Shown here piece after piece: positions 6,297 through 31,634 of a stretch of 64,000 nucleotides of DNA. The DNA is taken from the NCBI GenBank assembly GCA_001692895.1, contig KV748210.1:620001-684000 (forward strand), written 5' to 3'. Positions within the stretch are counted from its first letter, which is position 1, and each line of letters starts with the position of its first letter. The stretch is from Cenococcum geophilum 1.58. Its lineage: Eukaryota > Ascomycota > Dothideomycetes > Gloniales > Gloniaceae. Under the pieces are notes generated by a model, which saw nothing but the letters and a program-made list of their open reading frames with translations, did not search any database and was not told where the DNA came from. The translations under genes were made by a program, and so were the position numbers.

Positions 6297-6319
6297 CGTC
6301 AGGAAAAAATTTACCAGCA
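6297..6319 (+). repeat. Left terminal inverted repeat of the giant element
   Basis: This end shows a run of six A before TTTACCAGCA. Its partner is 31613-31634 in inverse orientation. The three mismatches are C/T or G/A, as expected from RIP. Confidence 0.85.
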
Positions 6320-6400
6320 TTTTCGCAGCATTTAACGGCATTTGGCGGCTAAATACGCAATCCGCGCACTGTAACGTGTAGCGTATAGTATCGACTTAGG

Positions 6401-6770
6401 TACGGCATACTGCCGTATTTAACAACGTGGTGCAGCATACTGCCGCATCTAATAACGCGATGTAGTATACTGCCGTATCTAATAACGTAGTATAGCATAC
6501 TGCCGCATTTAGTAACGTGGTATAAGCATACTACCGTATCTAATAACGTGGTGTAGCATTCTGCCGTATCTAATAACGTAGTATAGCATTCTGCCGCATC
6601 TAATAACGTAGTATAGTATTCTGCCGTATTTAATAACGCGGTATAGTATTTTGCCGCATCTAATAATATAGTATAGTATACTGCCGCATTTAATAACGTA
6701 GTATAGTATACTGCTATATCTAGTAATACGGTATAAATATATTACTATATTTAATAACATGGTGCAGCTA
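6401..6770. repeat. 30-bp subterminal tandem array, about 12 copies
   Basis: The period is exactly 30 bases, each unit containing a variant of CTGCCGCATCTAATAACG. The copies differ mainly by transitions and by TATA-type drift at the right end. The array starts about 100 bases inside the left TIR. Such subterminal arrays are typical transposase-binding zones of CACTA-like elements; that role here is inference. The open frame on its minus strand is a by-product of a period divisible by three. Confidence 0.9.
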
Positions 6771-6911
6771 ATTACGCATTTATAGCTACCTAGGTAAGTA
6801 GTACCTTTATTCTATTAAGCTCTCTCTACACTCAATACGTAATTAACGTATAATACCCCCCTTACGCATTCTATATATCTTACTTACTTTAAGTAATAAA
6901 TAAGCGTTGCT

Positions 6912-7055
6912 CTTCCCGCGTACTTAATAGTATTTACTTAGTCTATACAGTTAATAGTATTTACCTATTCCGCGTAATTAGTATACTTTACTTAGTCTAC
7001 GCAGTTAGTACCCTTTACTTATTCTACGCAGTTAGTATTCTTTACTTATTCTATA
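6912..7055. repeat. 27-bp tandem array, about 5 copies
   Basis: The unit contains CTACGCAGTTAGTATTC and TTTACTTAT. It is a second, separate array on the left flank of the giant element, different in sequence from the 30-bp array. Confidence 0.75.
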
Positions 7056-7729
7056 TACCTAGCACACAGTATATAAAGAACATATTTTAACCTAATAGTA
7101 GTATAATATAACCTTAATATGCCTAATAACGCCCTTTAGTTAACCTGCTATTTTAAGTTTAATATTTATATAAGTCCTATCGCGATAGTAGCACCGTACT
7201 ATTAAACCCCTAATTGTCTTTATTCTCGCCGTTATTCTTACTATTATTTTCCCTATCTATCCCACTGCCTTCTCTACTCTTATCCTCTTTATTAGTAAAT
7301 TCTAGTATTACTAGTCTATCTCCACTCTATAGGCGGGTCTTTATATCCTCTAGTATAGCACTATCTATAATATCTATAACCTTAAACTCGCTAGCAAAAG
7401 TACACTATAAGATGCGGTAATTAATTCCTGTTTCCTGTTTATTATTACCTTAAATTTATTTAAGGCGCGCTTAGATAGCGTTAATATTATAATTATATAG
7501 TATTAAAATTGTCTTATTAATATACTGCGAAAAGGAGACCTTATATATAGTTTTGGGGTTTATTCTTTATAACGAATACGCTAGGCTACCGTTATCCTAT
7601 TATATTATCTTTATTAGCCCGTATATAATAATTAAAATAGCGTAATATTATAATATAGGAAACGGCGGTAAAGTGCTATAGTATATAGCGAGTATCGTAA
7701 TATAACGTTGTGATATAATTAATATAATA
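7056..7729. other. AT-rich stretch, no gene recognised
   Basis: The 68-codon plus-strand open frame at 7214-7420 encodes only a Ser/Leu/Ile-rich stretch with no recognisable domain and is not called as a gene. Nothing else was seen. Confidence 0.5.
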
Positions 7730-8743
7730 GGCCGTCGAAATCGGACTCTGCACCTGTACGCGGTGACGGCTACGAACCTGGTCTTCGAAGTTCAGATCCA
7801 GAGCCAACGCAGAGACGTCGCACAGCGTGTGGACAGGACCTGGTGGTGGTTGTGGGCGTNNAGGGCGGTGGTGAANNNTTTTCGGATGGTGAGATCTTGA
7901 AAACCACTACTNTTGGCCCTCTACAATACGACGACTACTACATTGTTCTCCTATCCAAGGCACCTGTACGATCCAACATGGATGTATAGCATTTAANAGC
8001 ATCCCCNAACCCCTAACAGAAAGCATNGACGACCTCTTANATNGANNAANGAGNGAACGCGGAGCGAATGAACGAATGAGCAAATATACGGCCCCTCCTA
8101 ACCCCCAGGGCAATCGCCCGCGGAGCATGCGGTTACTCGCCGTTTTCAACTACCGAATACTACCTAGCAGCCTGGATTGCGACCCACGGTTTTCCCTGTC
8201 TCCTTTCAACGGAGTGGTGCCCTTAGAAAGGGCCTAGCTGGGGCCTAGGTATAAAAGATACCCAAATACACAATATATCCCGCTCGCTTATTAGTATTAC
8301 GGTAGTTAGAACGGATGAATCCCCCTTACGCCTTCGATGGCTCTAGGGGGGGGGAGGCAAGGCGTATATGGCAATAGTCTATAGGAGATAGCATACAGGG
8401 GATGGGCAAGATACGGAACAAGACAATAAGACACAGCAATCGATCAGCAGGGCCTAGCTGGGACGTAGTAAACCCCAGCTTTGATAAGCTAGAGAAGGAA
8501 GCAGTGGTTCCTAAGGAGTTCAAAACATCTAAGGAGGAGGACGTGCTGTAGGCCCGTAGGGCCGCTGCTACGTGCAAACATGGCAATTCGGGGTTTTTCA
8601 TCCTACTAAGGTGGCTTATAGGGTTTTTCCTTCCCCCAACTGCAGGGTTTTTCTTCATGTAAATTATAAGTTTTCCCCCTGTGACGGAGTAGTCTGCGTG
8701 GGCCAGTAGGATCCGTATCAGACGTTAATCAAAGAATTACTAC
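7730..8743. other. GC-rich, little-mutated block with assembly gaps
   Basis: Base composition changes sharply here and RIP marks are few. Ambiguous bases cluster between 7859 and 8050. The block is flanked by the same 14-bp AT-rich sequence at 7716-7729 and 8744-8757, which could be a target-site duplication or chance in AT-rich DNA. A TATA-like GGTATAAAAG lies at 8249-8258. On the minus strand a 110-codon frame spans 8326-8658; I do not recognise it. It may be a young insertion (solo LTR or retroposed sequence) or an assembly join. Confidence 0.5.
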
Positions 8744-10600
8744 TAATTAATATAATATTATATATTTACACCTATAGTATACGGTCGTTAAGTAATCCTA
8801 TTATTATACTTAGGATCTAGTTCCTTTAGATCTTCTATAATATCCTTAAACGGATTGCTAATTACCTATTAAGTCTATAGCATTTTATCTCTAGTTACGT
8901 TCCGTATCTTATTAACTTATTATAGAAGTAGCCTATATAGCCTTTTATTATACTTAGGTTAGTAGCTCTTCTAGGTATTCTATAGTCGCTCCCAACTATT
9001 TATAATACGCTTTAGTAAGTATAGTAAAAGGCTTTCTATAGATTTATCTATAATTATAGCATTGGCTTTAAACTTATAAATGACTTATATTCCGCTTCTA
9101 TAGTCCTTAAAAGTATATTAAATTGCTATATATATAAGCTATATTATATTAGCTGTAATAGGCGAAAAGAGGTTAGTACTATTTTTATTAAGGGCGAGTA
9201 ACCTTAGCCTAGTATTAAAGAATACGCGCTTAATATAACGTGTAATAATTAACGCCCTAAATCTTGTCTCTCTATCTTAGCCTTAGTTAGTTAGGTATAA
9301 TAAAAGGTATAGTACTAACTAGGCCACCGAGCGTAAAGCGGTTATCCTTAAGTAGTTCCGCTACTTTCTTTACTACGGCCTTAATATCTAGTTTAAGGCA
9401 GTTATAGCTCCCGGTAACGGTATCGCGCACTATATTTATTATATAATACCGAAATACACTAAGCTAGTTATATAGCTGGAAAATTAGTTAGTATAGTACT
9501 ATTAAATCTAAGGACCGCGAACCTTGCGTACCGCCGGCCCTAGTAGCATACTTAATACTCTATTTATTAGGTTTTTATAATGGTTTATAATAGTAATTGC
9601 CTCTTTCCACGTCTACTTTATTAGTGTGTTTAGACCGCTTATATTTATTTCCGGCTAGGGAGAAAGATAGAGCTCTTTAGGTATAGAGCTTATTATTACT
9701 TATATAATAAGACGTGTCTAAGCAATACCGTATATCTTTATATTAACTAGGTTAAGTAGCTGCTTTATATATTATCTAAAGTCATCCTATAGCAGTTGTT
9801 TATTTAAGTAATATATACGTTTTTTTTAAGTGTAGGTTTTAGATGTCTTATAATCGCTTAAGGTTTACGGGCTTTCGTCTAATAAGAACGAGACTATCTA
9901 TTAGGATAACGTTATTAAAATTAACAATAATAGGTTGTACTGTGGTATATTAATAATAGCCTTACCTTTTAATAAAGACAGTTACAGTATAGAGCCTAAT
10001 ATTATCCCCTTTAAGATCTAGATTATCTTAGGAGCTACTACTTAACTTATAGTATCTTTATTTACTTTTTTATGGGATAGGTAGAGGATAAGTATATTAG
10101 TTTAGTAGAACTATTTAGCTTTTATACGCACCTTACTTCCCTAAAAGACGCTAAATAGTTTAAAGTCTTATACCTAATATACTTTAAACAACAACCTAGT
10201 TAACTTTTATAATATAAATTAGGCATTTCTCGCTAAATATATAAAAAGGAGTTTTAATAAACTTATAATAATAAGTTAGGAGGGCGGCCTAACTATTTAT
10301 TAGGCTTTATAATAGGGTAATTAGATTGCCTTGCTATAGTATAGGGTTCTACTTTATATAATATTTTTTCTATACCATACAGAAGCCTAGTTCCTCGCGA
10401 TATTTACCTACTCTTAAGGTAGATAGTATAGTGTATAGGATATAAAGGGTAGCTAGCGCGTGGAGGGCGATATATAGTAGTATTATATTCTAGTTTATTA
10501 TAGTCGCGGCAATCTACCCCTTTATTATAATCCGGCGCCGCTAGTTATAACTTACCGCTATTTTAGCTAAGTTATATTTATTTACCGCCTAGTGTAAGCC
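8744..10600 (-). pseudogene. Unidentified coding relic downstream of the transposase
   Basis: On the minus strand long stretches, notably about 9200-10100, read through in one frame with stops almost only of the Gln/Trp-replacing kind. This suggests decayed protein-coding sequence. No domain was recognised. It lies directly downstream of the Plavaka-like transposase on the same strand, so it could be that gene's 3' part or a second element gene. Confidence 0.4.
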
Positions 10601-13600
10601 TATTTCCTTATATATGCATTAACCTATACCCTATTTATTTGCTTAAAATCTTTATTATATATAGTATTATATATATCCTAATCGCTATAGTTGTTTATAA
10701 AGAAATAGTTTATAATATTAATATCCGTTAGTATAAGTAAGATAGGCCTCGTAATATAGTTAATATCGTATATCTAAAGGGTATTTAGCGTGCGTTTTGT
10801 CCTGCTATTAAATAGCTTTATACTCTATACTCTAAGTATTCCGGTTCTTATGTTAATCTTACTACTATTATAAACTTAAAGGGTCTCTACTAACGCACTA
10901 GTATATTTTAAGTATTTACCCTCGCTATCTAATTGCCTAGTATCCTAGATTATAAGTAGTAGATAAAGCCTCCCTACTTTATTACTATAGAGGCTATTAT
11001 TTACCCACTTATATTCTTATACTATTATAGCATTATAGCGGGGGGCTTTAGTATTAGCCTATAATGGGATATATTAAGCAAACACCTTATTAAGCTTATT
11101 AGTATTAGTAGTATTCTTCCTAAAGCGAATATAGTATATAACGCTATAATAGATACTTAAGGGCATCTTTAATACCTAATTATTATCGGCCTCTAGTTAG
11201 TTAATGTCCTAGTTTATTTACTAGATTCCATTAATCTGTTTACGGCATTCCCTTATAAAGGGGACTAGTTTAAATATAAGGTTGGTAATCTCTATCTAGC
11301 GCTATACCTCCTTAACTATATACTAGATAGATATATTAATTCTCCAGTCTTAAAATATCTAAGTTATATAGTTATTAAAGTTCTATATATATAAGTAATA
11401 TGCGCATATATTAACTATAGGGCCTAGTTATATTATCTATATTGCGCTTATTAGGTCTACTATATTAATTATATTAGTTAACGCCTATAGCTTAAGTTTG
11501 TTCTAAAGCATAGTGTTAAGATATATAGTATTATATTGTAGTATCTACTCTTTATAGTTATTCCGTTTATTAGTCCTACGGTAAAATACCTTCTATAGCT
11601 TATATGCTTACTCTAAATACTCTATATTTATGCCTTTAATTACTCCTAGTTACTAAATACTCTCCAGATAGTAGGTAATAGCATATAGCTTAGGAATATT
11701 AAAGTGTAGTAGTTTTACCTTACTTAGTTAAAACGGAAGGAATATATTCTTTATCTTATCTATTCTATAAATAGCTACTACTAGGTACTAGATAGTTAAT
11801 TCGTTATATAATATATATTAAGATAGTATAGTAAAGTCCACAAACGCCCGGATAAATAGCATAGCGCCTTTATTCTATTTTAGTAAGGGTGCTATAGTAG
11901 GGACTAATTGTTATAACAGAGATTTATATATCTTTCCTGTTTATTGGCTAATATTTGCCTAGCTATCCCATACTATTATATTAGTAAATTATTCTACCTA
12001 TATAAAGTGGGTGGTAATAAGTATATTTATTTAACATCTCCTAGCCGCAACTATCTATATATAGGATATTAAGGCCCCAATATTTTCTAGCCTATATTTC
12101 GCTTTATATAAGCCCCTTAATCTAGTATATAAGATATTTACTAGTAAGGCCTTTAAGTACCTAGTATAGGAAATTAGGCGCTATTATCTTATAGATATTA
12201 GATAGATTATAGCCCTATATAAAGTTATAGAATGGCTAAATATAATCTAAGTTATCCTTCTTATTAGTATTATAACCTTCCTACTATATTTATATTTGGT
12301 CTTTTATTAATTAGTATATATAGAACAGCTATAGTCGCTAGATGGTAGTTATTAGATTATACCGTTTATTTATATATATATAATAAGTCGAATATTTATA
12401 GCTACTCTTAATACCTATAAGCGTGACCTATTTTTTATAATTAGCTATAAATATAGCTAGAAGTAGAAAGCAGTATTAATTCTAATTATCCGCGTATAAA
12501 AGATATACTTTTTTTTTACTAGCTTTCTCTAACGCTATAGGCATTATTAGCATAACTATACTAGTAGTAGGGTTGTCGCTAAAGTATACGTTTAAGGATA
12601 GCTGTAAAGGTCTTATATTGCACCACTAGTTATATTATTTAGTTGACAGGTATATAGACCGGGAGGTATATAAGTAGTAATAGGGCTAGTTAATTTACAA
12701 ATTGTTAAACGCGCAGTTTAATATTTCCAATTAAAATATAAAGCGGCTATGCTTTCTTGCCGCCGGCGTATTATATTAGTTAGGTCTTATTGCTAGCTAA
12801 TATAATTAGCACTATAGTTACGCCAAGCGGTAGCTACTCTTGCGTCTCCTACCATTAGTTTACTATATTAAGCTTATTGTATATTCTTATTCCTACTAAT
12901 AAGTACTGCCTTACTAGTAAGAAAGTTATATTTCTTTAGAAAGGGCTGTAACTAATAAGGAAGAATACAATCTCTAAAGCATTTTAGTAATATACCAGCA
13001 GCTATTAGTCCCTTACGGTTACAATTATTTTAATCTACTACGGTTAATTACTCTTAGATTATATCTATTTTAAAAGTAGTTTTACTTTAATATTATTAGC
13101 ACTCTAGTAAGAAAAATAGTTGGTAAATACTCCCTAAAGCCTAATATTGTTAAACTACTTGTTAATAGCGCGGTTAGAAGTCCCGTAGCTTACCTACTAT
13201 AAAACCTATATATATTCTGCCTTACTACTAAATGGATAAAATAGGGAAGGTATTTTATCTAGTGTACTACTAGTACGCTTAATACGCGGTATAATATTAT
13301 ATACTACCGCAGTATTATCCACAATTTGCGGATTTCCTTAGTTCCGTCTTAGAGGCTTTCCTATAGCGTAGCTAGTAGCCTCTTTAAATGTTTTAGTCTA
13401 AAAGATATCTATAGATATTCTAGTTAAAGTTTACTAATTAGTCTTAACTATCGCCAGGTTATACACCCTATTAAATATTATAGAATTATTATTATAGTAC
13501 ACATCCGCAGCCCCGTTATTTAGCTTATTAATAATATTATCGCCTAAAGCTTATATAGGTGGCCACTTATTACCTTACTTTAATTCGGCCTTATAATTGG

Positions 13601-13900
13601 TTATATAATGCCCTTCCGAGGTTTAATAGTATAATAGTATATTGTTGTCCATATATTGTATAAGTAGCCACTTATTATATTGCTCTAGCTTAGCCCTATA
13701 ATAGGCTGTTTAATACTTCTCCAAGCTTTAATAGCGTAAGGGTGCATTATTATTTATCTCTTTAATATTAACGCCCTTATATCTACCCTTCTTCTATTTC
13801 TATTATTTTAGATAATATTATTTATAACGGGTTAGACCGCCTATGCTTTTTACTTTAGTCCTATACTTTCCATATTACCGCTAGATAAAGCTTATTTATA
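10600..13900 (-). pseudogene. Plavaka-like transposase relic
   Basis: The minus strand reads, with RIP stops, as a fungal Plavaka-type transposase (DDE-type, related to CACTA/KDZ elements). Segments seen in order are an N-terminal part near 13560-13730; a block near 12700-12880 including ASNKTQL and a following WPLYILIGNIKLRV, matching the family's conserved 'SDKT ... P.Y..IGN' region; NIYKIIAPNFLYQVLKGLTS near 12100-12220, matching 'the DLLHQLHKG' region; and HFNIPKL with YLESI near 11600-11720, matching the family's 'HFNIPKLH ... H..ESIR' block. Length of about 3 kb fits the family. It presumably mobilised the surrounding TIR element. Exact ends are uncertain. Many in-frame TAA and TAG codons and Cys-to-Tyr changes make it inactive. 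Confidence 0.82.
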
Positions 13901-14049
13901 AATTACCGCATTAAGCTATAATTTGCTATAGTTTGGTTAGAAGGGGGCCGAAAATAATATCTATGTGGAACCGTATATTTAAAGTAATATTTATGGCTTA
14001 TATTATATTATAAGCCAGTTAAGATAGGAGGAGTATAGTAAAAGTATAG

Positions 14050-15373
14050 TAATGTCTATGGACACTAACGCGCTAAATAGCGTAACCCGTTACATTTTGC
14101 GCTAATTTACACTAGATTACGTTATATTAGGCTAAAAGACTCTACTTATTACTAACGTCGCGCCGCCTTTTTATTATACTAAGTATAGGATTCTAAACAC
14201 TACTATTCCCTACTTAGGATACTAGACTGTTTTTTATAATAGGACGCGATATATAACAGCGGTATGCCGTAAATACGGCGTAGTATAACTCTATAAGCGC
14301 CACGGACCTATAAAAAGATATACAGCTTATTACTAGCTTAGGCATTACTACGGAAAGACTTAATACTATTAAGCGGACTTTTAAGCAGGTTATTATTAAG
14401 GACGGTATCCTATATATTTTATTTCGCGGATAACTAAATAATTCGCTACGCGAGCAGGCAATTTAGAAAGTTATCCGTTAGGTAGTAGAATATGAGAAGG
14501 CACTAGCGCTATAGGTATATAAGGCTATACAGAATATACTAGCCCGCGTATAGTTAAATATATATAAGAAGATAAAGGTGCTAGGGCGGCCTAGCATTAA
14601 CTATATAGTGGATACGGAAAGGGGGTATGCGGCTGCTGCAAACTCGTAGAGTTTATTCTAGCTTAACTATACGTAAAACTACGGCTATAATCTTAAATAA
14701 CTCGTTATACTACTTTATAGGCGGAAACTAGATAGTACAAACTTAGTTCTAAGTATAGATATGGCCTTAAGTCTAGTATCGCTGTATAATACGCCTTAAG
14801 ACCTACGCACAGTTAAATATTAGCTACTAGTTAAGATATTTTTAGAGGCTAAGGTAGATTATAATAAGGAGTAAATATGGGCCGCCTATATAGAGACTAT
14901 ACCTATCCGAAACAATAGGGCCTTAAGGGCTGCTTTATTAAGGGCAGTTTATTATAGGGTGGGCTAGGTTATATTTATAGCTATCTATAAAGATAGTATA
15001 TAGGTGTCTATTATAATTATAATATATTACTAATGTTTATCTAGCCCTATTTTTAGCGCAATACGTTTTACTAGGTAGGCTAAAAGGTATTAATTAATTA
15101 CAGTTAATCTAATCTACGTGGAGATAGTGACTTTAGTTAAGTTTGCCTTATAGTAAGACCTCCTATCGCACTAGGAAGCCCTAAGATTATTACCTATATA
15201 TACAATCTTAGGTTATCCAGATATAATATAGCGAATTGCCTTACTATAGGCTCTTCTATTAGGGGCAACTATATAGATATTATATTTATCCTATATTTTA
15301 CTAGCTAGTAGCTAGTATAGTAGGACAGGTATTATTCTAAGGGCCTATAGTATTAGCGACAAGTTTCTTAAGA
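14050..15373 (+). pseudogene. Unidentified coding relic, divergent from the transposase
   Basis: From about 14290 to 15320 the plus strand stays in one frame with only Gln/Trp-type stops, giving a mixed-charge alpha-helical-looking protein of roughly 340 codons. I do not recognise a domain. It is divergently placed relative to the Plavaka-like gene, with the region around 13900-14050 between them. It may be an accessory gene of the element. A solo LTR lies just after it. Confidence 0.4.
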
Positions 15374-15378
15374 TATAA

Positions 15379-15598
15379 TGTTGGTTACATAAGGGGATAT
15401 CACGTAGCTACGGTTCGTAGATAGTATGATAATTGTTCTCTTATTGTGATTCTTGAAGAAAGGGGTGAGGAACCTAAGGTTCCTCACCACGCTAGTGCCG
15501 CGGCGGCACGTGACGGCAACTTGCCGCACGTAATGGCAACTTGCCACACGTGGTAGCAATATGCCTTATATAGTGACCACTTGCCTTTATTCCTAACA
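15379..15598 (-). mobile_element. Solo LTR with TATAA target duplication
   Basis: It begins TGTTGGTTAC and ends CCTAACA. It is flanked by TATAA at 15374-15378 and 15599-15603. Its first 110 bases match, in inverse orientation, the LTRs of the element at 16715-19115 (including the block CACGTAGCTACGGTTCGTAG). The remaining part differs and contains a 20-bp tandem array. It probably arose by LTR-LTR recombination of a related Copia-like element. Confidence 0.9.
15506..15585 (-). repeat. 20-bp tandem array, 4 copies, inside the solo LTR
   Basis: Four consecutive 20-base units end in AACTTGCC or a variant. The array is absent from the related LTRs at 16715 and 18951, so it expanded or was lost between LTR variants. 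Confidence 0.85.
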
Positions 15599-15603
15599 TA
15601 TAA

Positions 15604-16709
15604 TAACGGCGTACTAATATTAGGAATAGTATACCTAATATAAGTAGAAGAGGGCGTTAGGTTATATTGCCTTAGTAATAGCTATAGTAAGAAAAGGATT
15701 AAATCCTATTTAAGGTTATTACAGTTTAATAAAAATAGAGGCGGCCTATACTATATAGAGAGTAATTAATAATAGTTGCAGTTATTAGCGAGATATCTAG
15801 ACTATAATTTAACTAGTTAAGTATTTAGGGAATATTTAGTTATAAGTTTAGATTAGAATAAGGGCTTTAGAATAGAGTTAATTTAAAGCTCTAATCTAAT
15901 TCTAAGGCGACCATTTGGTTAAATTCTAGTTTAACTTAACTTTAGCTATAAAATTTTAATATTTTAAAAAAACACGCTAAAAGTTACTAAAAAGTTGGTA
16001 ACTTACTATATATAGAATCTAAACTAAGGTCTTGGCGTCAGTTTAAATTAGGAGCTTAAAGCTCCTTATTTAAACTTTAAATTAAATCTAAAGGCTTTAA
16101 ATTGCACACATCCGTATAACCCGTAAAGCTATAAACGCGTATTAAATTAGGAAGGAACGCGTTCTTTTACTAGACTTTTAGTTTAGATTTAAAAGTAATA
16201 GATTATAACTAAACGACCCCTTAAAATCTAGATTATGGATTAGCATTAATTAACCGCTAGCCTAAAAGGGATAGAAACTAGGATTACTAGGCTTTATAAA
16301 TTAGGCTATCTTTACTATAATACGCTTATCTATTTTGGAGATTATAATTATTAAAAGTTTATTTTATTTAGCTATAATATATAATGTTATAATATACCGT
16401 ATTTTACCTAGTACTATAGCAAAATTGCAAATATTAAAGGCCTATAACTATTACCGCTCTTAACTTCTATCTAGTGTCCCTATTTAAGGGTCTCGCTACT
16501 AGTAAAGTCTATAATATCCGTCCTTACTACCCTTCTTATGTTCTAACACTACCAACATCCTCTCTATTATTGTTATTCTTATTATTATTACCGGCACCGC
16601 CCTAGCCGTTATTATTAGCGCCCTCTCTATCGGCCTTATTTTACGCTTTAGTATAATTACTAGTACCGCTAATATTTACTATATCCGCGAAGTTAGGGAT
16701 AGTAATATT
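15604..16709. other. AT-rich stretch, no gene recognised
   Basis: Very A/T-rich sequence with small palindromes such as AGGAGCTTAAAGCTCCT near 16051. The last 230 bases (about 16480-16709) have longer pyrimidine-rich open stretches that join to 19121 once the LTR element is removed, so they may be the 5' part of the next coding relic. Confidence 0.4.
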
Positions 16710-16714
16710 AAAGT

Positions 16715-16882
16715 TGTCGGGAATGAGGCAAGCGGTCGTCACGTGTCGACGTGGCCCTAGCGTGGTGAGGAACCTTAAGTTCCTCACCCCTTTCCTTATT
16801 CCTATTAATAAAAATATACAATAACAATCATCATACTATCTACGAACCGTAGCTACGTGATATCCCCCTTATGTAACCAACA
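16715..16882 (+). repeat. 5' LTR of non-autonomous Copia-like element
   Basis: It is 168 bases, TGTCGGG...CCAACA. It differs from the 3' LTR by a 3-base indel and a few transitions. It contains the 20-base inverted repeat region GTGAGGAACCTTAAGTTCCT, a strong palindrome. Confidence 0.95.
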
Positions 16883-18150: not shown

Positions 18151-18237
18151 CTACGTTACCACCGCAAGATCAGGAGAAGTTTAGCAGGGAATTGGAATAC
18201 GGCAGAGGGTACGATCAATATCGGCTACAAAGCACTG

Positions 18238-19115: not shown

Positions 19116-21666
19116 AAAGTTAATGTCTATACTGTATAAAATAGGCGTGTAATTGGCTGTACGCTAGTAGTAGATATGCTATATAATTTTATCGACGTCG
19201 AATAGGGCGATAAGTTACTAAAAGTGCTTTTTCTACTTAGGATTTTTGAGGTTAATAAATACCTTATTGTTCTTATACCACTTTTTAATTTTATAATATA
19301 CGGTATTTATAAAGGTTTTATTGCTAGTATAATAATTATAGACCACCTAGGGACTACTAATAATAATAAGGCCCGCTTATGGTCTAGTAATTATAAAAAG
19401 GTTCCTTGCCGTATCTTAGACAAATTTTAGCGGACTAGTAACTATTATATTATATACTAATAACTCTACCTAGCCGCCTTAGATGCCGTTAATAGTAAAG
19501 ACCTTAATCTTACTAACTACTGGCGTAAATTCCCGCTACTTGCTGCCATCTTACTAGGCGTAGCACTATTCTTTAAGCGTATATAGCGCTGCGGAGTAGA
19601 TAGCAAGTTAGGCTATATATAGAACGGTAAGGCTAACCTCTAATAGCTTAAATCTAAAGTCTATTAGCGCTATAGCCACCTAAAATACGCGTTAAGCGTA
19701 GACTAGGTTATACGTTAATTAGCTAAGCTTATTTACCTATATAGTACTATTAATAGCAAGGAAGGCGATAGAGTGGTCGCAGTGTAGTATATTCTTAAAA
19801 AGCTCGCCACCAGCTTTAACTGCTCTTAGTCCTTAACTATTAGGCTTATCTAAAACTGGCTATATAGTAGGACGGCATTTATAAGATATGCAATATCTTT
19901 AATAAATTAATATTGCAGCGAGAACTATACCATATCCGTACTAGCCGCGAGGAGACGCGTATAGAGGAAGATGGATTTCTAATAGTAAAACGGATTATCA
20001 AAATCGGGACTAAGGATTAGTTTTGGTTAGTATATATTACTAAAGAAAACCTAAGGCATAGGGTCGCTAGTCTAGATCTATAAACCTCCCTAAATTAAAT
20101 ATAGTCTACTCTAAATAAACCTAGTAAGACTGCTTAGCTTGGACGCCTTTTTAGTCTTATTATAAAAAACTACGCGTATAGCGCTAATAGAATGTATATA
20201 AGTCTATAAGACTATATCGGGTGTTATAAGAATAACATTAGCCTTCTTAGCTAGGTTTGCGATAACTACGTTAGCCATAAGTGTTAATCCTATCTTATTA
20301 TCTTGCATTATATTATTACTAAGCGTAAATTAGTACAAGTATTAGCGGAATTTGGTGTATTTAGTTATATTAGGGTCTATAATAGAATATAAGTTTCCGT
20401 TACTATCTAGAACACCTATAAGGTGTAATAACTACTAACCTTTAGACAAATCTATAACATATAACCGCTTATTAAAGCCAGTGGCATTACTAGCCTTAAA
20501 CGTACGGTAGAGCAAGAATGCTATATTTAGCATAGACGCGTCCTCGTTAATTATAGCATAGTTATTCTATTCCTTAAAATACTTAGGATAAATATTAATA
20601 CCTACCGCTGTTCGCTATATAACGGTATCCTGCTTATAGACCTTAGTTTCTATTAAGCGTATATAGCGGCGAAGGATAATAGGAAATTTAGCGGGATGGC
20701 CTTATATAATTAGTGCCTTATAGTCCTCTATAAGCGTATTATTAATTATCTTAACTAGTATATCTAGTTAGCGATTAAGCGGCAATAAGACCCAAATTCT
20801 AGTAGGATCCTGCTAGGGCGACCTAAGTTAATACTAGTATTATACTAAGACAGTTAGGAAGGTTGATTTCCCAATACTACTAAGGCCTTATATTAGTAAA
20901 ATACCGCCTATTATATATTTAAGCGCAGTATAGGCACCCGTTTACTCTTTGTTAAGTAGTAGTAAGATAGCCTTAAGGGCATTATTAACCGAGTTCTTTC
21001 TATACTTAGTAATATTATAGTTAAAGTAATTAATACGCGGGAGATTTGTGAAGTTATTAAACAGCGTAATTTGGCGCTTAATATAGAAACTATTGCCTCC
21101 TTACTATAGGTGGTATAGAGTATTAATCTCTTAGGAGATTCTAACCTTAGGGACACGCTTAGTTATAAGATATTTAATACCTTATGCCGTAATTAGGGCC
21201 TTACTTAGGTTACTAACTATTATAAAGTTATTACTGCTTAAGATATACTCCAGAGCGAATGCGGGGTTTAGTATAAACTTATAACCTACCTATAGTTAAA
21301 AGATAAAAGCATAGTAGTTATAGCCGGAGCTAAAGGGAGTAGTATTAACAATAACTCCTTTCTAGCTGGCCTAAATATCTACGTCTTTACCTAGAAATAA
21401 GATATTAATAATAAAGTTAGTATAAAGGGTAAGACTATTAACTATCTAGATGGTAGCGTAGTAAACTCAGTCCGTGCCACCTAGAAAGGTAATAAGATAA
21501 ATAATAGTAGGTACTTAGGGGTTCTAATTAACGGCCTTAAGGCTCGCGACTACGGCATAGAACTGGACCGTAAAATACTTAAGAACGCTATTAAACTAAT
21601 ACCTCGTAGGGATTTTGTATAATAGTTAGTCCTCTACTAAGAGCTATATACTAAGCTAAATATTTA

Positions 21667-21851
21667 TGTCTAAACAAGCGAGCAGAACTTGGTGGAACTC
21701 TTATAGGAGCAATCACGTGAGCTAAGCGAGCTCAGGAAACCCCTTAAATTCCACCTATCTATGTATGAGAAGACAAGAAGAAGAACACGAATGAATTAAG
21801 AAACAGTTACCTTATATTGCAATTGCAGTACCCCCCTGGGTGATACCGACA
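21667..21851 (+). repeat. 5' LTR of second Copia-like element
   Basis: It is 185 bases, nearly identical to 23284-23468, and contains GAGCTAAGCGAGCTC, a near-palindrome. The bases just downstream (CTGATTAGTGATATCAC) resemble those after the other element's LTR (CTAATCAGTGGTTAAC) and are a candidate primer-binding site. Confidence 0.95.
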
Positions 21852-22121
21852 CTGATTAGTGATATCACAGATCAGCCAGGTGTTATTATAAAGAGAGACG
21901 ATACGCGATCGCTCCTACCAAGGCCCGCTAATCGTGTTGCGTTTGCTAAGGAGAACCCTTTCTACCAAGGCCCTGGGAACTTAAAGAACCGACTCCTACC
22001 AAGGCTTCGTTCGGTTCGCGTCTACCACGCAAAATCAACACCCAGTACGACCTCTTTACTGAGCGCCAGTACACCCTACAACCTAGTAGCGTTAGCAGCA
22101 CCACGACCTACGCCAGACACA

Positions 22122-23117
22122 ATGTCCGACATAAGAATCCAATGTCCGAACTGGGCCAACGGAATTACCCTAACTAATGAGACCACCGCAGAGGACATTA
22201 CCAACTACATTGACTTTAAAATCAATGAGTATACTAAGTACAACTTTAAGGATAAAGGCTTATGGGAATTATACCAAGAGGACTTTAATAATTTTGAGGT
22301 ACAAACATTTAAGGATGCTGATAGGTCTGCACTTAAGGCACTCAAACAACTACTCCGACGTAATAAAGTATGGGTCTTTAACGAGAGCAAGTCAGTACCA
22401 CAAGCGCTGTACGACGTCGCTTATGAGGACGACCGTACGGAATGGTCAGATGCAGAAATTCAGCTATATATCAACAGCGAAGGACCCTTCAATTCGTATG
22501 CTATCAACTATCGTCTTAAATTACGCCCACTTGCCACTACCCCTAGGACACCTTAACCACCTGTTGCAACTACACCCCAGCAAGCTGCTCCGTCTACACA
22601 AGCTCCGTCCGCGCAAGCTCCGCCCACACAAGCCTCGTCCGCGCAAGCTCCGTCCACGCAAGCCCCGTCCGCGCAAGCTCCGCCTACGCAAGCTCCGTCT
22701 ACAGAAGCTCCGCCTGCGCAAGCTCCGTCCGCGCAAGCTCCGCCCGCGCCAGCTCCGCTAGCTTCACCTTCCCCCTTGCCTACAAACGTCACAGCTGTCT
22801 TAAATGACCTTCCTCCTATAGCCGAGCTCCCCTTACCTACGAACGTTATAGCTACCTCTACAAACGTTACGGCTCCCCCTACCTATAATCCCGACACCGT
22901 CTGCTGCCTTCCTTGCAGATCTGCCATATTAAAAATTACGTCAACAGCGCGCCCTAAACGCCTACAGCCTACGGCTAAACGATTGTGCCGTTACGCCTGC
23001 AATCCGTCTGACGCTAGCACCGTACTGCCACATACCATTAACAAACTAATAGCGCCGCTACGCCTGCTATTACGACACCGATCGCGCCGATACGTCTGCG
23101 ATCTACTGATTAAATGA
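22122..23117 (+). pseudogene. Gag-like protein with Ala/Pro/Gln repeats, one RIP stop
   Basis: It starts MSDIRIQCPNWANG and runs 331 codons to the TGA at 23115-23117, broken only by TAA at 22554-22556, expected to be CAA. Residues 1-140 form a Gag-like domain with LLRRNKVWVF ... TEWSDAEI, aligning with LREKGVFVP ... HKWTPQEIE of the first element. Residues about 150-205 are QAPSA/QAPPT repeats from a 15-bp minisatellite (22590-22750). The rest is Thr/Pro-rich then basic. The upstream open codons 21840-22121 lie partly in the LTR and lack support. Confidence 0.75.
22590..22750 (+). repeat. 15-bp minisatellite encoding QAP[SP]x repeats
   Basis: About ten units of the type CAAGCTCCGTCCGCG. Open frames on both strands over this tract come from the period. 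Confidence 0.88.
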
Positions 23118-23283
23118 TCGTGCCTATATGCCTATAATCAACCAACCAACTGATAGATAAGCTCTCTGCTTAACCACTATCACTACCGCCGCTGGTACCA
23201 TACTACCGCTTTCTTTTTATGGGTTATTTGATAATTTGGCATAAAGCCTATTATCCTTCTTTCCTTTTTGTAAAAGTCGCCAG

Positions 23284-23468
23284 TGTCTAAACAAGCGAGT
23301 AGAACTTGGTGGAACTCTTATAGGAGCAATCACGTGAGCTAAGCGAGCTCAGGAAACCCCTTAAATTCCACCTATCTATGTATGAGAAGACAAGAAGAAG
23401 AACACGAATGAATTAAGAAACAGTTACCTTATATTGCAATTGCAGTACCCCCCCGGGTGATACCGACA
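23284..23468 (+). repeat. 3' LTR of second Copia-like element
   Basis: 185 bases, matching 21667-21851. Preceded by a mixed tract without a clear polypurine run. Confidence 0.95.
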
Positions 23469-24799
23469 ATTTATATTATAGTTCTTCTACTAGTAACCTA
23501 AAGAATTATTAACGCTCTGCTATTATAGGCTTGCGTTTAGGCTTATAATATAACTATTAAGCTATTTAGTACCTAGTATAAAGAAGTAGACAATAACCGC
23601 AGAACTCTTTAATAGCATATCCTAAGCTTTATAGATTTGCGGTGTAAATAGGCCGAAGTCCCTATTAATAAAGAAGTACTCGCTAAGTAACGTACGCGTA
23701 CCTAGTACGAGTTTATTAAAGGCGACAACGAACCTAATATAGTAAAGTTGTAGGGTTATAGCATCTTGCGGAAGAATACGAGTAAGATGCTTAAGCGTAG
23801 TTAGATATAATAGTTATTAAGTAACCAGAGAAGTAGTATTAGTAGTATTAACCTTAACGTCGCTAGCGATGTTGGCATCCGTAAATTAGATAGACGCCGT
23901 CTTATATAAATAATAAGTAGGCATTCTACTGGTTTTATAAGATACCTAGAATATAATGCTATATGCTATAATATACTCTTTAATAATTTGCATAATAAAC
24001 TAAACTATAAGGTAGTTATTATTTAGAAGCTAAAGTATATCTAAAGGTTCGGCCATTATAGAATTGCTATTCTTTACGTAGGTATCTAGATTGTCTACTA
24101 GGCTATCCGCCACTGGATAGAAGCCGGCTATATTAAGAGGTTTAGGCGATAAAGAAGTAGTAGCTATACTTAAAGTAGTAGCACCTAGTATATCTACCTT
24201 GCCTAAAGCAGTTATAGCGTTTATCGCCCGAATTAAAGTAGGTCCACTTATATAATTATTAATATTATACCCTATAACTCCGCAGTTCTTATATACCTAA
24301 CTATAGAAGACAGTCTAATAGTCTAGGGAGCTATAGTTTAAGTAAGTCCACTTCTTCTTACCCAATAGCTAGAGATAGTCTCGCTTTCTATAGCCTATAG
24401 CACTATATTAGTTATACATTACACTAAAATAGTTACTCTTAAGATAACCGGCTTCCCTATAATTATTACATATAGGGTTAGGGCAGTTAGCTTTAAGATA
24501 ACTAGCCTTACTATAGCCGCGATAAAGTTAAGAAGCTTTCTTAAAAGGATAATCGGCCCGTATATAGCTGGTAGATAGATAAAAATAGCATTTTAGAGCG
24601 TTGTTAGCTAAGAAGTATAGACTACTAAGCTCTAAAAGAAGAGGCCCGTTAAGCGTAGGGCTCTTACTATTGCCTTATAAGGCACTAGAGCCTATAGTTA
24701 CTATAGTTAAAGCAATTTTAAAAACTATAACGCCCTTAGCGAACTTTTTGTGGTTATAGACGTAGTTAACGTCGCGAGTTATAAAATAATTAGTAGGTA

Positions 24800-26690
24800 G
24801 GTCTATTTTAGTAGCAGGCTATATTAAGCGGTAGTTTGTATAAACGTATTAGTAAATATAGATTCTCTATTATATAGCTAAGGCCGAAGATAAGGCAGCT
24901 GACTTACTACGTTATAAGGCTTTACAGCTTAGATAAATCTACAGAGGCACTAGTTATAAAGGTAAATACCAGTAGGGTAGGAGTAAGGGTAGGTAGTTAG
25001 TAGAGTTAGGTTAATTAGTAAAGGTAAGGAAATAAGGTACGCCCTAATAAAATTGTAAAAGTAAGGCCTTAGCAGTAAAGTATACGGTTATATACTCTAT
25101 AGGTTAAACGCGTATAAGGGTAAATCTATAGTAATAAGACTAACCTATAGAGGAAGATACGGTATAGTATAAGTTACGGGGACTACCCTACCTAGCCTAT
25201 CTCTTAATATAGGCCAGGCAATAGTCCAGCACTATTAAGCTCTTATAGTTTATAATATAAGTATATAGACGTATAAAAGGGTAAGGGAAAAAAGAAGCAA
25301 GTAATAAAGTAAAAGCACTTTATTATAAGTAGGCTAATTACGTTATAGGTAAACGGAAACTTAAACACCGTAATTTGTTAAAAATGTCACTAATAAGTAC
25401 AGCCTACTACTACTAGAAAGTATAAGTCTTTTCTTCCCTTAATTAGTAAGAGAAAAGGCATTATTAACTAAATAATCTCTTGCTAAAGTATTAGGTGGGG
25501 AGTGGGATATTATAAAACTATATATAGTTCTAAATAGATCTAAAATAAAGATATTAAATTTAAGAGACTCTAACGTAATAAATACTATAGTAGAATACTA
25601 ACCTCTTATATAATACTAAATAGATAAATAGCGAGATAAGTTAACGTTGTTAAGTGGCTGGATACTGGTATATATAACATGTCTACTATCTTAAAATGCC
25701 CTAAAATGCTATTAATTATATAAACTTATAATATAAGATATAAAACCTCCTACTACCTTTTACGGTAGATATGCGTTTAAATAAGCACTAGATATTTATG
25801 CACAGACATAAATCCCGTATACTAAATAATTATTATTCTAGATAGACTTATCTAGTAGGCCCTTAAGTGCTATATAGTATAATAATAATACTAGTAATTA
25901 CGAAGTAAGTATAATACGTCGCTATCTACTAGAAGTACTACCTATTATATACTAAGCACTTCGCAGTAATAGAGTCCGCATATATAGATATAGGCTAGCC
26001 CTCTAACTCTAGTGGCGTGTATATCTACCAACTTTATATAATAATAAGAAATATAGTAACGCCTATAATAAGTGCAATACGTCGCTATTTACTAGAAATA
26101 CCACCTATTATATAGTAAACACTTTATAGTAATAGAGCCCGCACGTATAGACATAGGCTAGCCCTTTAACTTTAGCGGCGCGTATATATACCAACTCTAT
26201 ATAATAATAAGAAATATAGTAACGCCTATAACCTCCTATATTCTACTATACTATAATAACTAGTTACCCCTTTGCAGGCACTTAATAAATTGCTTATATT
26301 AAAAACTATAAGAGTCTAGTAGTACTAGACCGCTACCTAGCCCTAAATAGGCTAGGTAGGGTAGTCCCTATAAGTTATATAATTATACCCTTATTTAACT
26401 GCACAGTACTAAGTCTAGCCGTATTTACCCTAACCAGTAGTAGCAAACTATAGCCAATTTTACCTCTATGCGGGCACGTACGGGCAATTACAAGATTTAC
26501 CTCTTTACCTCTTCTTAATTAACTTTACTTATCCTACCTTCTATCTCTCCTATAACTAACCTCTAACTATATCTAATACTAGAGTTATACTAGTATAGCG
26601 CTAGCCAGCTACCATATAAAGCCCTCCTACTTTAATAGTCACCTTCTACTTAATATATACTGTAATATTATACATACCTAATTAAATAAG
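24800..26690. other. Intergenic AT-rich DNA before the helicase relic
   Basis: No gene was recognised. The stretch contains the 163-bp tandem duplication listed separately and otherwise fragmented AT-rich sequence. Confidence 0.45.
25905..26230. repeat. 163-bp tandem duplication
   Basis: AATACGTCGCTAT recurs 163 bases later (about 25913 and 26076), followed in both copies by the same blocks (TATAGACATAGGCTAGCCC type, then AATAATAAGAAATATAGTAA). Differences are nearly all transitions, so the duplication preceded RIP or was itself a RIP trigger. Confidence 0.88.
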
Positions 26691-29600
26691 TGACTTAATA
26701 ATGATGTAAATATAGGCAAAGCCGGACGCGTAGTATAAGGCAAACCTAAAGCTAACTAAAGATATAGATATTGCCCAAGGCTTCGGAATAAGCATTAAAA
26801 ACTATAATAGACTAAAAGAGACGGTTAAAGATATCACGATTAAAGTTAAGCCTAAGCACGTAATATATCGCGGTAACTCTATAATAATCAAAAAAGGGCA
26901 CGTTAAGGAGTTTTATAAGTAACTTCTATAATTTACTAATACTCTACTAGATTAGAAACTATAGGTAATCCTAAAATTTATAAAAAGTGCTTATTCTAAT
27001 TGCGTAAGGAGGGTACTAAGTACCTTTAAGAGTAGGTACGCTCTATATAAATATATATTACCCCTAAAGACTAAAGCATAAGATAAAACAACGCTACTTT
27101 AGCTACTATATGCGATATAGCCTATAGACGTTACTATAACCCTACTATATAGTATCCCTTCGCCTTAGCTAGCAACCTTAGTGGTAAGCATTACAATTAA
27201 TATAGGAGATATTGAGATTAAAATCTAATCTATAGGCTTAACGGGCAGGTTAATAGTTAGGGTAGTTTAAGTCTTATATTTAATAAGTAGAAACCTATAT
27301 ATAGCTTTAAGTAAGCTATAAAAGGAACTATAAGCCTATATAGAGCTTAACATTAATAGTCCGCCCAAAAAAAAATCTATATATCGCTGTAAAGATATAA
27401 AAACCTCGCAATATAGTTAGAGGGTATACTTATTACAGCTCTTAGCGAAATAGTAAGAAATGGCATAAAGGAGGCCGTGCTTATAGTATTACTCTTACCT
27501 TCTAGCTTAAACTCCTAAGTTGCTGCCACTAATAATATACCGCTAGCTATTAAATCTAAGGCGCCTAGATATAACGGACGCAGCGTAAAAGATAGCTAGT
27601 AAATCCTAACGCCGTATAAGGCTAGCGGTAAGAGTAAACTAAGAGAAGGCAAGAAGCGAAGTTAATTAGGATTAGCAGTATATAGCTCTAAGAAAGATAG
27701 TAAGGGTAAGCCTATTAGATATAAGAAATCGGATAATAATAAAACCAAATTAGGTAGATATAATAAGTGGCCTTAACTAAGATTAATAATAAGTGCTCTA
27801 GCAAAGGATAATAAAGCAAGCCAGCCGTGCCTAGGAAGTTAAATAGTCGTAAGGCTAACCTAAATAGAAGTAGGAAACGCCCTTAAGCAGAATTAGCGGT
27901 AGATACCCTTACGGAAAATAGTAATAATAAACTAATTATGCGTAGAAGGTGATTAGTAAAGGGAAGACATAATCTATCTGCCTATAAGCCTATATTAGTA
28001 AGTAATAGCGGTACTGGAGAAATTGCCATAGATAACGGTAAATTGCCACAACCTATTACCGAATCTAAAGGTATATACTAGCCTAATAATATAATAGACG
28101 ACCCTACTACCGCATCGCCAACCGTTAATACCCCTTAAAATATTACTATAGAGGACAGTAAATTGCCGTAACGTGCTAGTAGATATAATAATTAGTTCTT
28201 ATATTATACTAACTCTAAAGACGTAGAGAGTGGAGATAAAGATAAGGATTTAGTTAATAATAACGACTAAGATAAGGATTTGGTTAATAATAACGACTAA
28301 AATAAAGATTTAGTTAATAATAATAACTAAGACGTAGATGTAGAGAAAGAGCTTAACTAGTAATCTTTTTTAGCCCAGCTTTATAAGGCCGGGAAGAATA
28401 ACCTAGATAGTGTACTAGCGCATATATCGGAGGTGGATCTTTTACTTACTCTAGAGTATTTCCTACTTATCTTATTAAAAGCACTCTCTAAAACTACCCT
28501 AATTGAACTCCCTAATTAGGGTCTTATATTAGGCTTTAAATTTAGCCTATACTAAGTAGTATATATAGTTTAGGCATTTAAGTAAGAGAGGATAATTAAA
28601 AAAGACAGCACCTACATAGACAAACCCAGCGCGGGCAAGACTGTATAAATAATTACTTAATAGCTAATAAACTACTTTTATTATTAGAACGTAATAGACG
28701 TTTAAAAGGCCTAAGCCGCTAGGGACGTAACCCACTACCTACCTAAGATATATCCGCTGGATATAAAATGCCTATAGGTAGTAAAGCAGCCAATTATATA
28801 CTACTATAAAGATAACTTTAAGAAACTGTACCCTATAGACCCACAGCGAGGCTATTTAGTTATCCTTATACCGACCCTAGGCCTACCAGGATTCCTAAAG
28901 GACGCGAGTATAATATTATAAAATGGCGCGATTATAAAGCGCCCTAACCCGCCCCAGATTATAATTCTCGCCCCTAGCTATAATAAAGTTAAGATATTTA
29001 GTAAACTAAAAAAGGATAAATAGCCGTAAATCTGTAAGGCTCTTAAGTAGACTAACGAGGAATAATAGGAGAATAACAATAATATATATCTAGTTGGTAA
29101 GACTCTCCTATTACACCCATAAGGGTAAAGCTAGATTTAAAAATTATTATTATCCTACCCCTAATATAACGGAACTATTAGCGCTAAGATACCTAACCTA
29201 ATTCCTTTTAATTACTACGCGAAATTATATTACCACACAACTAATACGCGGGTTTATTACTATACGAACTAGTATATAGAAATACCTAAAGGGCAAAACC
29301 CCTAGATCGTATTAAAAATTAAAGAGTATAATATAGGTTAGGCGTATTCTCTAGAATAAATACCACCTAGACGCAACCAGTAGAGTCTTAATATTATTTA
29401 TTAAGGATATAGTTAAAGAGTACTATATTACGTATAATCGTAGTCCTACTATATAGGGTATATCTAGTACGCCTAATAACGGGAACCTAATATAACTAAT
29501 GCGGTTTATTATAGTAGGATTAAAGAGGCCTAAGTAGGAAAAAGTAAATAAGCTAAAGGAAACGGAGTTCGAAGTACTGCTTAAGCTTAAAAAAAAATAT

Positions 29601-30700
29601 CCAGCTAAAGAAGAAGGAATTTAACTATCTTTATAAGGATGCGAAGACCAACCCATCTAGAGTAATAGTAGATAAGAAATTCGGCAAACTAGCTATATTT
29701 TTCTGCATAGTTATTCTAATGTTTTAGATATATAGAGGGGAGTTAATACTCTAGTTTAATTAGTAAAAGCTTATCCTAAAAAACAGCTATTTTAAATTAG
29801 TTATATTATAGGCCAACCCTAATAATACTAAGGTGGCTATAATTATAGCTATAAAGGACCAAGTAAGGATAGAGTAAAGGCGCTAATATAAGGAACTTCT
29901 AGCTATATAAGAGGAAGATAGTAGCGATCTAAATACTAAACCTAAGATACTAAAACTTACCTAAGCCAAGTTATATACTAACGCGAAAACGGTAGTAAGC
30001 GTAGCCTAGGTTGTCTAATATTGGGACTAGTATACCCCTATTATAATTAAGTCTAATAAGTCTAATAAGTCTAATAATAAACGCCTAAAAACTTAAAGTT
30101 GTATACTTAAGGACCTAATTATTACTAAGTAAACTACTAACCCGCTTAGTAAGGAGTTCACTAATATACTTAACCGCTATTTTTAACAAAATGTAAAGTT
30201 CTTTTAAGCTAAAAAAATCTATAATTATATTTATATTAAAAAATAAATAGATAGTTTAGCGTATAAGATTATTATTACTACTTACTTACCTCTTATACTA
30301 GCTTATTAGTTTAATAGGCTATATAAAGAATACGGTAAAGATAAAGTACTCCGCTATATAGCCAGTATATCTAATATTAAGAAGGCTAAGGCTAGGCAAA
30401 CCTTTAATACTAATAACTCTAAGTAGATCCTACTTTATACCTTTATATTAATTAGGCTGTCTATTAACCTATAGCGCGTAAATTATACTATTATAGTTAA
30501 GCTAAGCTATAAGCTCTTAGAGGTAAAGTAACTATTTACTTAGATAGATCGATAAGGATAAACTAAGCCCGTCTACTATAGTACTATTATAGCTAATTAG
30601 AAGTTAAGTATTAAGTAAAGGATATTAAAGTTAACTAAATTTATATTATTACTGCATAAGTTAATATACAAGGAGAAGGCTAATTTAAGCTTAAAAGTAG
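26690..30700 (+). pseudogene. SNF2-family helicase relic
   Basis: From about 28490 to 30700 the plus strand reads as the two lobes of a SNF2 ATPase with RIP stops. Near 28520-28690 a segment resembles 'Q-motif ... LADE.GLGKTVQ': the Walker-A remnant SAGKTV is at 28628-28645. Near 30440-30600 the C-lobe is clear: SINLQRVNYTIIV followed by IDR-x-G-x-TKPV, matching motif V and the 'HR.GQTKPV' motif VI. Upstream, 26690-28480 stays readable in places and is probably the N-terminal half, which I could not assign. It lies next to the right end of the giant element and is likely its cargo or accessory gene. It is inactive. Confidence 0.78.
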
Positions 30701-31094
30701 GTTAAGGTAAAAAGGAAGACACTAAGACTATTTAATACTAGTAATAATTATAAGAGTATAATAGAACTATAAATAGTTCTAAACACTATATATAGCCGCT
30801 ATATAGTAAAACCTGTTATAATTATATAGTGGCGTATATATAGGCCAAGGGACGTATCTTCTAGTAACTTATAGGTAGTAGCGTAGCGTATATAGTAAAC
30901 TTAGTTAACTAAAATATTTCTAGTATTATTATTTCTAAGAGAGTATTAAATTGCAGTTTATAGCACTTTTATTATTAAGGTAGTATTTAGCCGCAAATTA
31001 TAGTATTATTATTAGCGGTATAGTATATAGCCGCAAAATGTAACTAAATACGGCTAAATACTAAAATTACTTAATTAGCATAAACCTAATTTAA

Positions 31095-31117
31095 GATACT
31101 AGTAAATTTTTTTGTAA
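31095..31117 (-). repeat. Internal copy of the right terminal repeat
   Basis: ATACTAGTAAATTTTTTTG resembles the true right end (ATACTGGTAAATTTTTTCC at 31612-31630). It could be an older end of the element, of a nested relative, or a duplicated terminus. Confidence 0.6.
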
Positions 31118-31135
31118 TACCACCCTACCCCCTAT

Positions 31136-31430
31136 ACTTACTAATATTAATAAAATATATATAAAATATAAAATATATTATTTTTATTAATAATATTAAA
31201 TTTATAAAAATTATACTTTTTTATATGCTTAGTAATATTAATAAAGCGTATATAAAATATTAAAATTATAAAAATTANACATTTATATATGCTTAGTAAT
31301 ATTAATAAAGTGTATATAAAATATTAAAATTATAAAAATTATACATTTATATATGCTTAGTAATATTAATAAAGTATATATAAAATATTAAAATTATGAA
31401 AATTATACTTTTATATATGCTTAGTAATCT
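31136..31430. repeat. 64-bp AT-rich tandem array
   Basis: TATGCTTAGTAATATTAATA recurs at 31224, 31288, 31352 and (start of a partial unit) 31416, exactly 64 bases apart, with a more divergent unit before. One ambiguous base is at 31278. Confidence 0.92.
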
Positions 31431-31435
31431 TATAG

Positions 31436-31600
31436 TTAGTACTTAGTAGCTAAATATTAACACTTAATTCTAAATGCTAACACTTAATTCTAAATGCCGC
31501 ATTTAGCAGCTAAATACTAACACTTAATTCTAAATGCCGCATTTGGCAGCTAAATGCTAGGAAATGCTAGAAATGCTAGAAAATGCTAAAATGGCAGAAA
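31436..31600. repeat. Right subterminal repeats of the giant element
   Basis: Several near-copies of CTAACACTTAATTCTAAATGC and of GCATTTAGCAGCTAAAT. The second motif matches, in inverse sense, the left subterminal stretch GCATTTGGCGGCTAAAT at 6338-6354. This makes the two ends structurally comparable beyond the TIR. Confidence 0.75.
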
Positions 31601-31612
31601 AGTAAAATTAAA

Positions 31613-31634
31613 TACTGGTAAATTTTTTCCTAAT
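31613..31634 (-). repeat. Right terminal inverted repeat of the giant element
   Basis: Inverse partner of 6298-6319 with three transition mismatches. It is followed at once by ATT and then by chromovirus gag sequence. Confidence 0.85.

Follow-up and report, generated by a model that had tools for sequence, protein, structure and literature searches.

A giant, very probably Plavaka-group DNA transposon with predicted helicase genes in Cenococcum geophilum 1.58

Relation to described large transposons

Plavaka DNA transposons are described, in the accessible part of PMC12730594 (Kojima 2025), as having target-site duplications (TSDs) of 2 bp in PlavakaA and 2-3 bp in PlavakaB, with the termini TGT..ACA and CATCA..TGATG, respectively. 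Here we report an element in a 64,000-bp stretch of the Cenococcum geophilum 1.58 genome (contig KV748210.1; C35:620001-684000), which is called the window throughout. The element very probably represents one copy of a giant cut-and-paste DNA transposon from the Plavaka group with a length of ~19.8 kb, and it carries damaged genes of a Plavaka transposase, a DUF6532 protein and two predicted helicases.

Large precedents can be found in the accessible portions of the literature. In the red alga Chondrus crispus, enlarged EnSpm/CACTA families measure 16-20 kb and contain 4-5 open reading frames (ORFs; cited in PMC6431247), the Plavaka giant repeats of Amoebidium reach up to 50 kb (PMC11244446), and a mushroom transposable-element library holds elements of up to ~42 kb, their kind being unstated (PMC9674265). 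Because the Chondrus CACTA and Amoebidium Plavaka are such precedents, we regard the window element as a variant within a known group, set apart by its giant size and its helicase genes. It resembles the Chondrus families, compared by size and ORF number alone, in size class and multi-ORF build, but those families are EnSpm rather than Plavaka and reside in a red-algal host. The Amoebidium repeats likewise tie a Plavaka transposase to a very large repeat unit, but they are tandem gene clusters with many tyrosine recombinases, and no definition by terminal inverted repeats (TIRs) or TSDs stands in the consulted passages (PMC11244446). Starships are also giant fungal transposons (accessible text of PMC12134995), but they have a tyrosine recombinase captain, and none was found in the window element.

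The likeness to PlavakaB of Agaricomycotina lies in the Plavaka transposase and the TSDs of 2-3 bp, whereas the window element adds two helicases, one SNF2 and one UPF1-like, as well as DUF6532; the accessory gene of PlavakaB is TET/JBP (accessible part of PMC12730594). In the accessible main text of that paper SNF2 is absent, and a helicase appears once, in a passage on Helitrons. No helicase-bearing Plavaka was found in the consulted passages of PMC12730594, PMC6431247, PMC11244446, PMC9674265 and PMC8290104, nor among the papers listed for Plavaka (alone or with SNF2 or helicase), fungal CACTA with helicase, Chondrus EnSpm and DUF6532, a coverage that leaves out most subscription journals.

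Termini, copies and insertion site

The limits of the element and its terminal features are as follows.

6297..31635, + strand: the entire giant Plavaka element; length 25.3 kb including its four nested inserts, core ~19.8 kb
6295..6296, no strand: target-site duplication TT, left copy, from matching 2-bp flanks and the empty site
6297..6322, + strand: left TIR, beginning CGTCAGGAAAAAATTTACC
31610..31635, - strand: right TIR
31636..31637, no strand: target-site duplication TT, right copy, from matching 2-bp flanks and the empty site
6405..7055, no strand: left subterminal arrays, with 30-bp units at 6405-6759 and 27/54-bp units at 6916-7055
31192..31559, no strand: right subterminal arrays, with 64-bp units at 31192-31432 and 20/40-bp units at 31450-31559

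The core of the TIRs (6301-6322 versus 31610-31631) matches over 22 nt at 95%. In comparison with other copies the repeats continue beyond this core, as far as CGTCAGG at the left end and CCTAATA at the right, and the limits were therefore set at 6297 and 31635. CCTGACG is the right end in several other copies, and position 31635 of the window corresponds to their terminal G. The matching TIRs and the arrays at both ends, which a sequence-only reading of this DNA had noted, are real. The 3-bp ATT duplication of the same reading was rejected, because the TSD is a 2-bp TT and the third base counted is the element's own last base (31635).

The genome assembly measures 177.2 Mb in 162 contigs; because the best candidates alone were scored in searches of it, the counts of matches and clusters are lower bounds. 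The end pairs number 23, comprising the window copy, seven full copies and 15 additional pairs. Identical 2-bp flanks are present in 20 of them, with seven different dinucleotides (GT, AT, CT, TA, TG, AA and TT), TA making up 9 of the 20. A simple base-composition model gives a probability of ~4e-20 for at least 20 matching pairs out of 23, and by eye the flanks differ beyond the two matching bases in most pairs. When the window's flanks are joined with a single TT, they are found contiguous at all 40 scored places (3029 candidates) with 89-92% identity, so that the point of insertion is fixed precisely and sites without the element are common. The great, almost complete length of the copies would also be expected if a 20-kb block had been multiplied by tandem or segmental duplication without transposition. 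However, a different dinucleotide is duplicated from site to site and the empty sites are precise and contiguous, which refutes such duplication and leaves it with practically no probability.

These termini also bear on the classification. The 2-bp duplication in 20 of 23 pairs agrees with Plavaka, and the family's termini, CGTCA..TGACG, are one base off the PlavakaB type. The end pairs do not show the CAC..GTG termini and 3-bp TSD of EnSpm/CACTA proper. Seven dinucleotides, with TA in 9 of 20, do not agree with the TA duplications of ESTA, and two matching bases do not agree with the 8-bp TSD of KDZ (Zisupton). Helitrons have neither TIRs nor TSDs, and the presence of both here sets the element apart from them.

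The sequence-only reading had proposed that the 25-kb stretch is a single element with a core of about 20 kb, and both proposals are borne out. Copy c30 measures 19,814 bp end to end, and the extra length of the window copy is accounted for by its four nested inserts. Against c55b, c30 aligns in a single high-scoring segment pair (HSP) with 90% identity over 19,898 bp, and against c55a likewise in a single HSP with 89% over 19,964 bp; for the remaining copies, the aligned pieces are 80-94% identical, mostly 88-90%. The eight copies including that of the window cover 94-100% of c30, the minimum being c73, in which ~1 kb is missing. From 241 left-end candidates 40 were scored, and 23 of these 40 have a same-strand right end within 80 kb. 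The shortest five spans measure 18.7, 19.8, 19.9, 20.0 and 20.4 kb; longer spans hold inserts or may be mispaired. We looked for indications that this TIR family bounds only short elements and found that it does not, given these five spans, although one 266-bp element exists (see below).

The distances between genes recur as well. The left end is followed at 8.8-9.5 kb by the UPF1-like superfamily 1 (SF1) helicase gene in 11 of 22 cases, and at 14.7-15.4 kb by the SNF2 gene in 8 of 22. SNF2 is located within 40 kb after SF1 in 27 of 34 places, at 5.92-5.98 kb in 11 of the 27. Several spacings of ~7.7 kb represent matches of a DNA segment within the SNF2 gene, and the remaining gene spacings are mostly longer, consistent with nested inserts. 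Pooling matches of the left end, SF1, SNF2 and the SNF2-region DNA segment (the best 40 of 70 candidates), we counted at least 63 clusters at a 40-kb gap and at least 60 at an 80-kb gap, with two or more kinds of match in 47 of the 63. It is unusual for a cut-and-paste DNA transposon to reach 20 kb and to be present in dozens of copies, and the gene baggage is far above that of most such elements.

By its pattern in the sequence, nearly all divergence among the copies is of the kind left by repeat-induced point mutation (RIP), because the 28 pairs of eight copies contain 54,990 transitions versus 1,533 transversions (97% transitions). The spread of the family would thus be recent relative to ordinary substitution. 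Presumably the family spread first and heavy RIP damage came afterwards.

Genes of the core and their possible roles

Four genes were assigned in the core, in the order DUF6532 (-), Plavaka transposase (-), SF1 UPF1-like CCHC helicase (-) and SNF2 helicase (+). In the window copy they occupy the following positions.

9058..9285, - strand: DUF6532 (PF20149) gene remnant, E 4.5e-4; its 20.6 bits fall short of the curated cut-off (24)
10585..13004, - strand: Plavaka transposase, damaged by RIP and spread over two or more frames; the match to P0003 is at 12553-10585 and that to PF18759 at 13004-12654
16551..24806, - strand: SF1 UPF1-like helicase with CCHC knuckles; nested inserts 3 and 4 divide it into the pieces 24806-23469, 21670-19116 and 16715-16551
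26716..30702, + strand: SNF2-family helicase, RIP-damaged, in several frame pieces; homologue P0001

The Plavaka-type transposase relic of the sequence-only reading is confirmed by PF18759, with E 7.5e-14 in the window copy, 2.8e-18 in c55a and 1.9e-27 in the undamaged homologue P0003 (657 amino acids, 67% identity, 98% coverage). Plavaka transposases are characterized by C(2)C and H(3-4)H motifs between the second D and the last E; in P0003 a stretch reading KCSTCH can be seen. No solved structure matched P0003 at E 1.

The SNF2 helicase relic gives no Pfam match in the window copy at E 0.05, yet it is confirmed through the undamaged relative P0001 (1328 amino acids, 64% identity, 100% coverage), detected with a profile of five damaged copies; a single tblastn match in c30 covers its residues 1-1328. 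Against solved structures P0001 matches weakly with SMARCA-type, RAD54-like and LSH proteins (E 0.002-0.006). SNF2 loci were scored at 35 of 289 candidates. A profile of seven damaged copies likewise detected an undamaged relative of the SF1 gene, P0002 (1355 amino acids, 59% identity, 95% coverage), which matches zf-CCHC (2.2e-21), AAA_12 (8.7e-20) and AAA_11 (1.5e-4) in Pfam; its nearest solved structures are UPF1/NAM7 (E 6.7e-13). Among 34 SF1 loci scored of 129 candidates, 25 are near full-length, and their stops are almost all TAG or TAA. Judged from these comparisons, the putative SF1 protein is a second helicase of the element, which the first reading had missed. Core scans for invariant stops and 3-periodicity indicated likely coding stretches, and gave no gene models alone.

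The damage to the genes has a direction. Differences between c30 and its undamaged relatives fit C>T/G>A at 392 of 440 residues for P0001 (16 fit the reverse), at 421 of 453 for P0002 from about residue 101 (15 reverse), and at 220 of 224 for P0003 (0 reverse). The same changes explain 74 of 76, 68 of 68 and 51 of 51 stops of c30, respectively.

Genome-wide, 266 candidates yielded 123 scored PF18759 matches; excluding 13 second pieces of split genes, 65 one-piece and 45 other matches entered the tally of DUF6532 proximity. DUF6532 lies within 60 kb of 38 of the 65 one-piece matches, at 15.3-16.3 kb on the opposite strand for 21 of the 65, and within 60 kb of 17 of the 45 others, 14 of these 17 at 4.4-5.2 kb on the same strand. 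The proximity expected by chance is ~5%. One-piece matches with distant DUF6532 (e.g. C30:1374123 and C30:1389709) are probably another large family.

A diverged relative of the window element was found at C42:245856-266933 (L100, L089-L091). It measures 21,078 bp, has TA/TA flanks and is less RIP-damaged; its left end, CATCAGG, matches the CATCA..TGATG termini of PlavakaB (accessible part of PMC12730594), and its right end reads CCTAATA. This one copy keeps DUF6532, transposase and SNF2 in the order of the window. Its transposase is 41% identical to P0003 over 646 amino acids and its SNF2 protein 23% to P0001 over 614 amino acids, with a weak Helicase_C match (E 0.0033) and SNF2-rel_dom at chance level (0.089); its DUF6532 match (7.5e-10) is stronger than the window's. 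Near three more split-type Plavaka matches (C39, C4 and C3), by eye, Helicase_C lies 13.5-23.6 kb off on the opposite strand. The 21-kb element, together with the third Plavaka/DUF6532 set, suggests a whole giant branch of the Plavaka group. Adjoining the relative's transposase, L089:7448-8119 (+) has a small protein-level similarity to the c72, c73 and window copies.

We considered whether a short Plavaka/CACTA element was inflated once when unrelated helicase genes inserted into it, the resulting composite being amplified afterwards. Nested insertion is common, with four inserts in the window copy alone, and short forms also move, as the 266-bp element with TIRs of the window family demonstrates (C18:1000530-1000795, L094; TA/TA flanks); it was probably moved by the transposase of the giant element. 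However, the genes stand at recurring distances in many copies, the single-HSP copies have no breakpoint around the helicases (no search was aimed at repeats bounding each helicase), and the diverged 21.1-kb element retains the order of DUF6532, transposase and SNF2, which largely refutes the composite and makes it very unlikely. By the 19,898-bp HSP and the repeated gene spacings, transposase and helicases are not separately bounded inserts in the compared copies. Five other places were noted: L095-L098 have a good right end and an imperfect left one, and at L099 two ends of the left type stand without a right one.

Several results weigh against a giant Plavaka transposon with helicases of its own. 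Matching 2-bp flanks are lacking in three of the 23 end pairs (C50, C24a and c55a), of which C24a, with ends 74 kb apart, may be mispaired. P0003 covers the C-terminal part of PF18759 only (profile 193-325). Neither solved structures, by single-sequence or profile search, nor Pfam matched the damaged helicases, and strict SNF2 motif patterns found no match; the Pfam scores of P0001 are modest (SNF2-rel_dom 2.6e-6, Helicase_C 4.7e-6), and would mark a divergent SNF2. P0002 finds no match in the 21-kb relative, so that the SF1 helicase is not universal. By subtraction, ~8 kb of the core lies outside assigned genes. Since no undamaged gene of the window family was found among the scored places of the genome, it is past spread that speaks for activity.

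The sequence-only reading had suggested a giant cargo-bearing DNA transposon. The element is indeed giant and has moved as a unit, but the helicase genes look like its own accessory genes, and not like cargo from the host. The ORFs at 17.5-18.7 and 21.8-23.1 kb of the window were rejected as cargo, being located inside nested inserts.

In a possible scheme, the transposase would pair the two distant ends, excise the element and insert it at a 2-bp staggered cut, and the DUF6532 protein might bind the subterminal arrays as its end-binding partner. The SNF2 protein would serve to open up chromatin silenced at the donor or target, and the UPF1-like protein may act on nucleic acid, either in handling the long element or in countering silencing. 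TET/JBP genes on fungal DNA transposons are proposed to aid in escaping methylation-based silencing (accessible part of PMC12730594), and the helicases, as possible factors of movement or counter-silencing, would be a parallel to them. It is conceivable, if rather doubtful, that a lineage of giant Plavaka elements uses its helicases and DUF6532 for transposition itself or for counter-silencing and is thereby able to move 20 kb, an equivalent of TET/JBP from a different enzyme class. The recurrence of two helicase superfamilies at fixed places makes long-DNA movement or escape from genome defence a testable idea.

Nested inserts and surrounding repeats

The remaining features of the core are listed below.

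7729..8746, no strand: nested insert 1, ~1.0 kb, absent from c30
15376..15590, no strand: nested insert 2, ~215 bp, an inverted relative of the terminal repeats of insert 3
16715..19113, no strand: nested insert 3 of 2.4 kb; direct terminal repeats of 166 bp (97%) and long GC-rich ORFs at ~17.5-18.7 kb
21667..23469, no strand: nested insert 4 of 1.8 kb; direct terminal repeats of 185 bp (99%)
25906..26231, no strand: tandem duplication of a 163-bp unit, matching off-diagonal repeats of c30 versus other copies

Inserts 3 and 4 are short elements with GC-rich tandem-repeat ORFs. A Pfam search of the frames of the nested inserts gave no match.

The element was said to interrupt a chromovirus. Retrotransposon flanks are supported by RVT_1 and two RNase H families, matched in Pfam among 12 flank frames, the assignment of the left flank being made by elimination; the term chromovirus is unconfirmed, with no chromodomain in the flank frames at E 0.01. 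Matches of the right flank stop near 32403.

A remnant of DUF3435, the Starship-captain family, is located at 32515-32979 (+; E 1.9e-13), 0.9 kb beyond the right end. Its proximity might suggest a Starship-like element with this tyrosine recombinase as the mover. However, the remnant lies outside the TIRs, in a different high-copy repeat that starts at ~32403, where the matches of the flanking retrotransposon end. No DUF3435 was found in the core frames scanned, and the TIRs, 2-bp TSDs and Plavaka transposase do not fit a Starship; such an origin is refuted by the TIRs, TSDs and empty sites and deserves hardly any credence, in keeping with the earlier claim that the element is distinct from Starships. 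Further to the right, direct repeats at 37382-37807 and 44878-45300, 90% alike and 7.5 kb apart, resemble the long terminal repeats of another retrotransposon.

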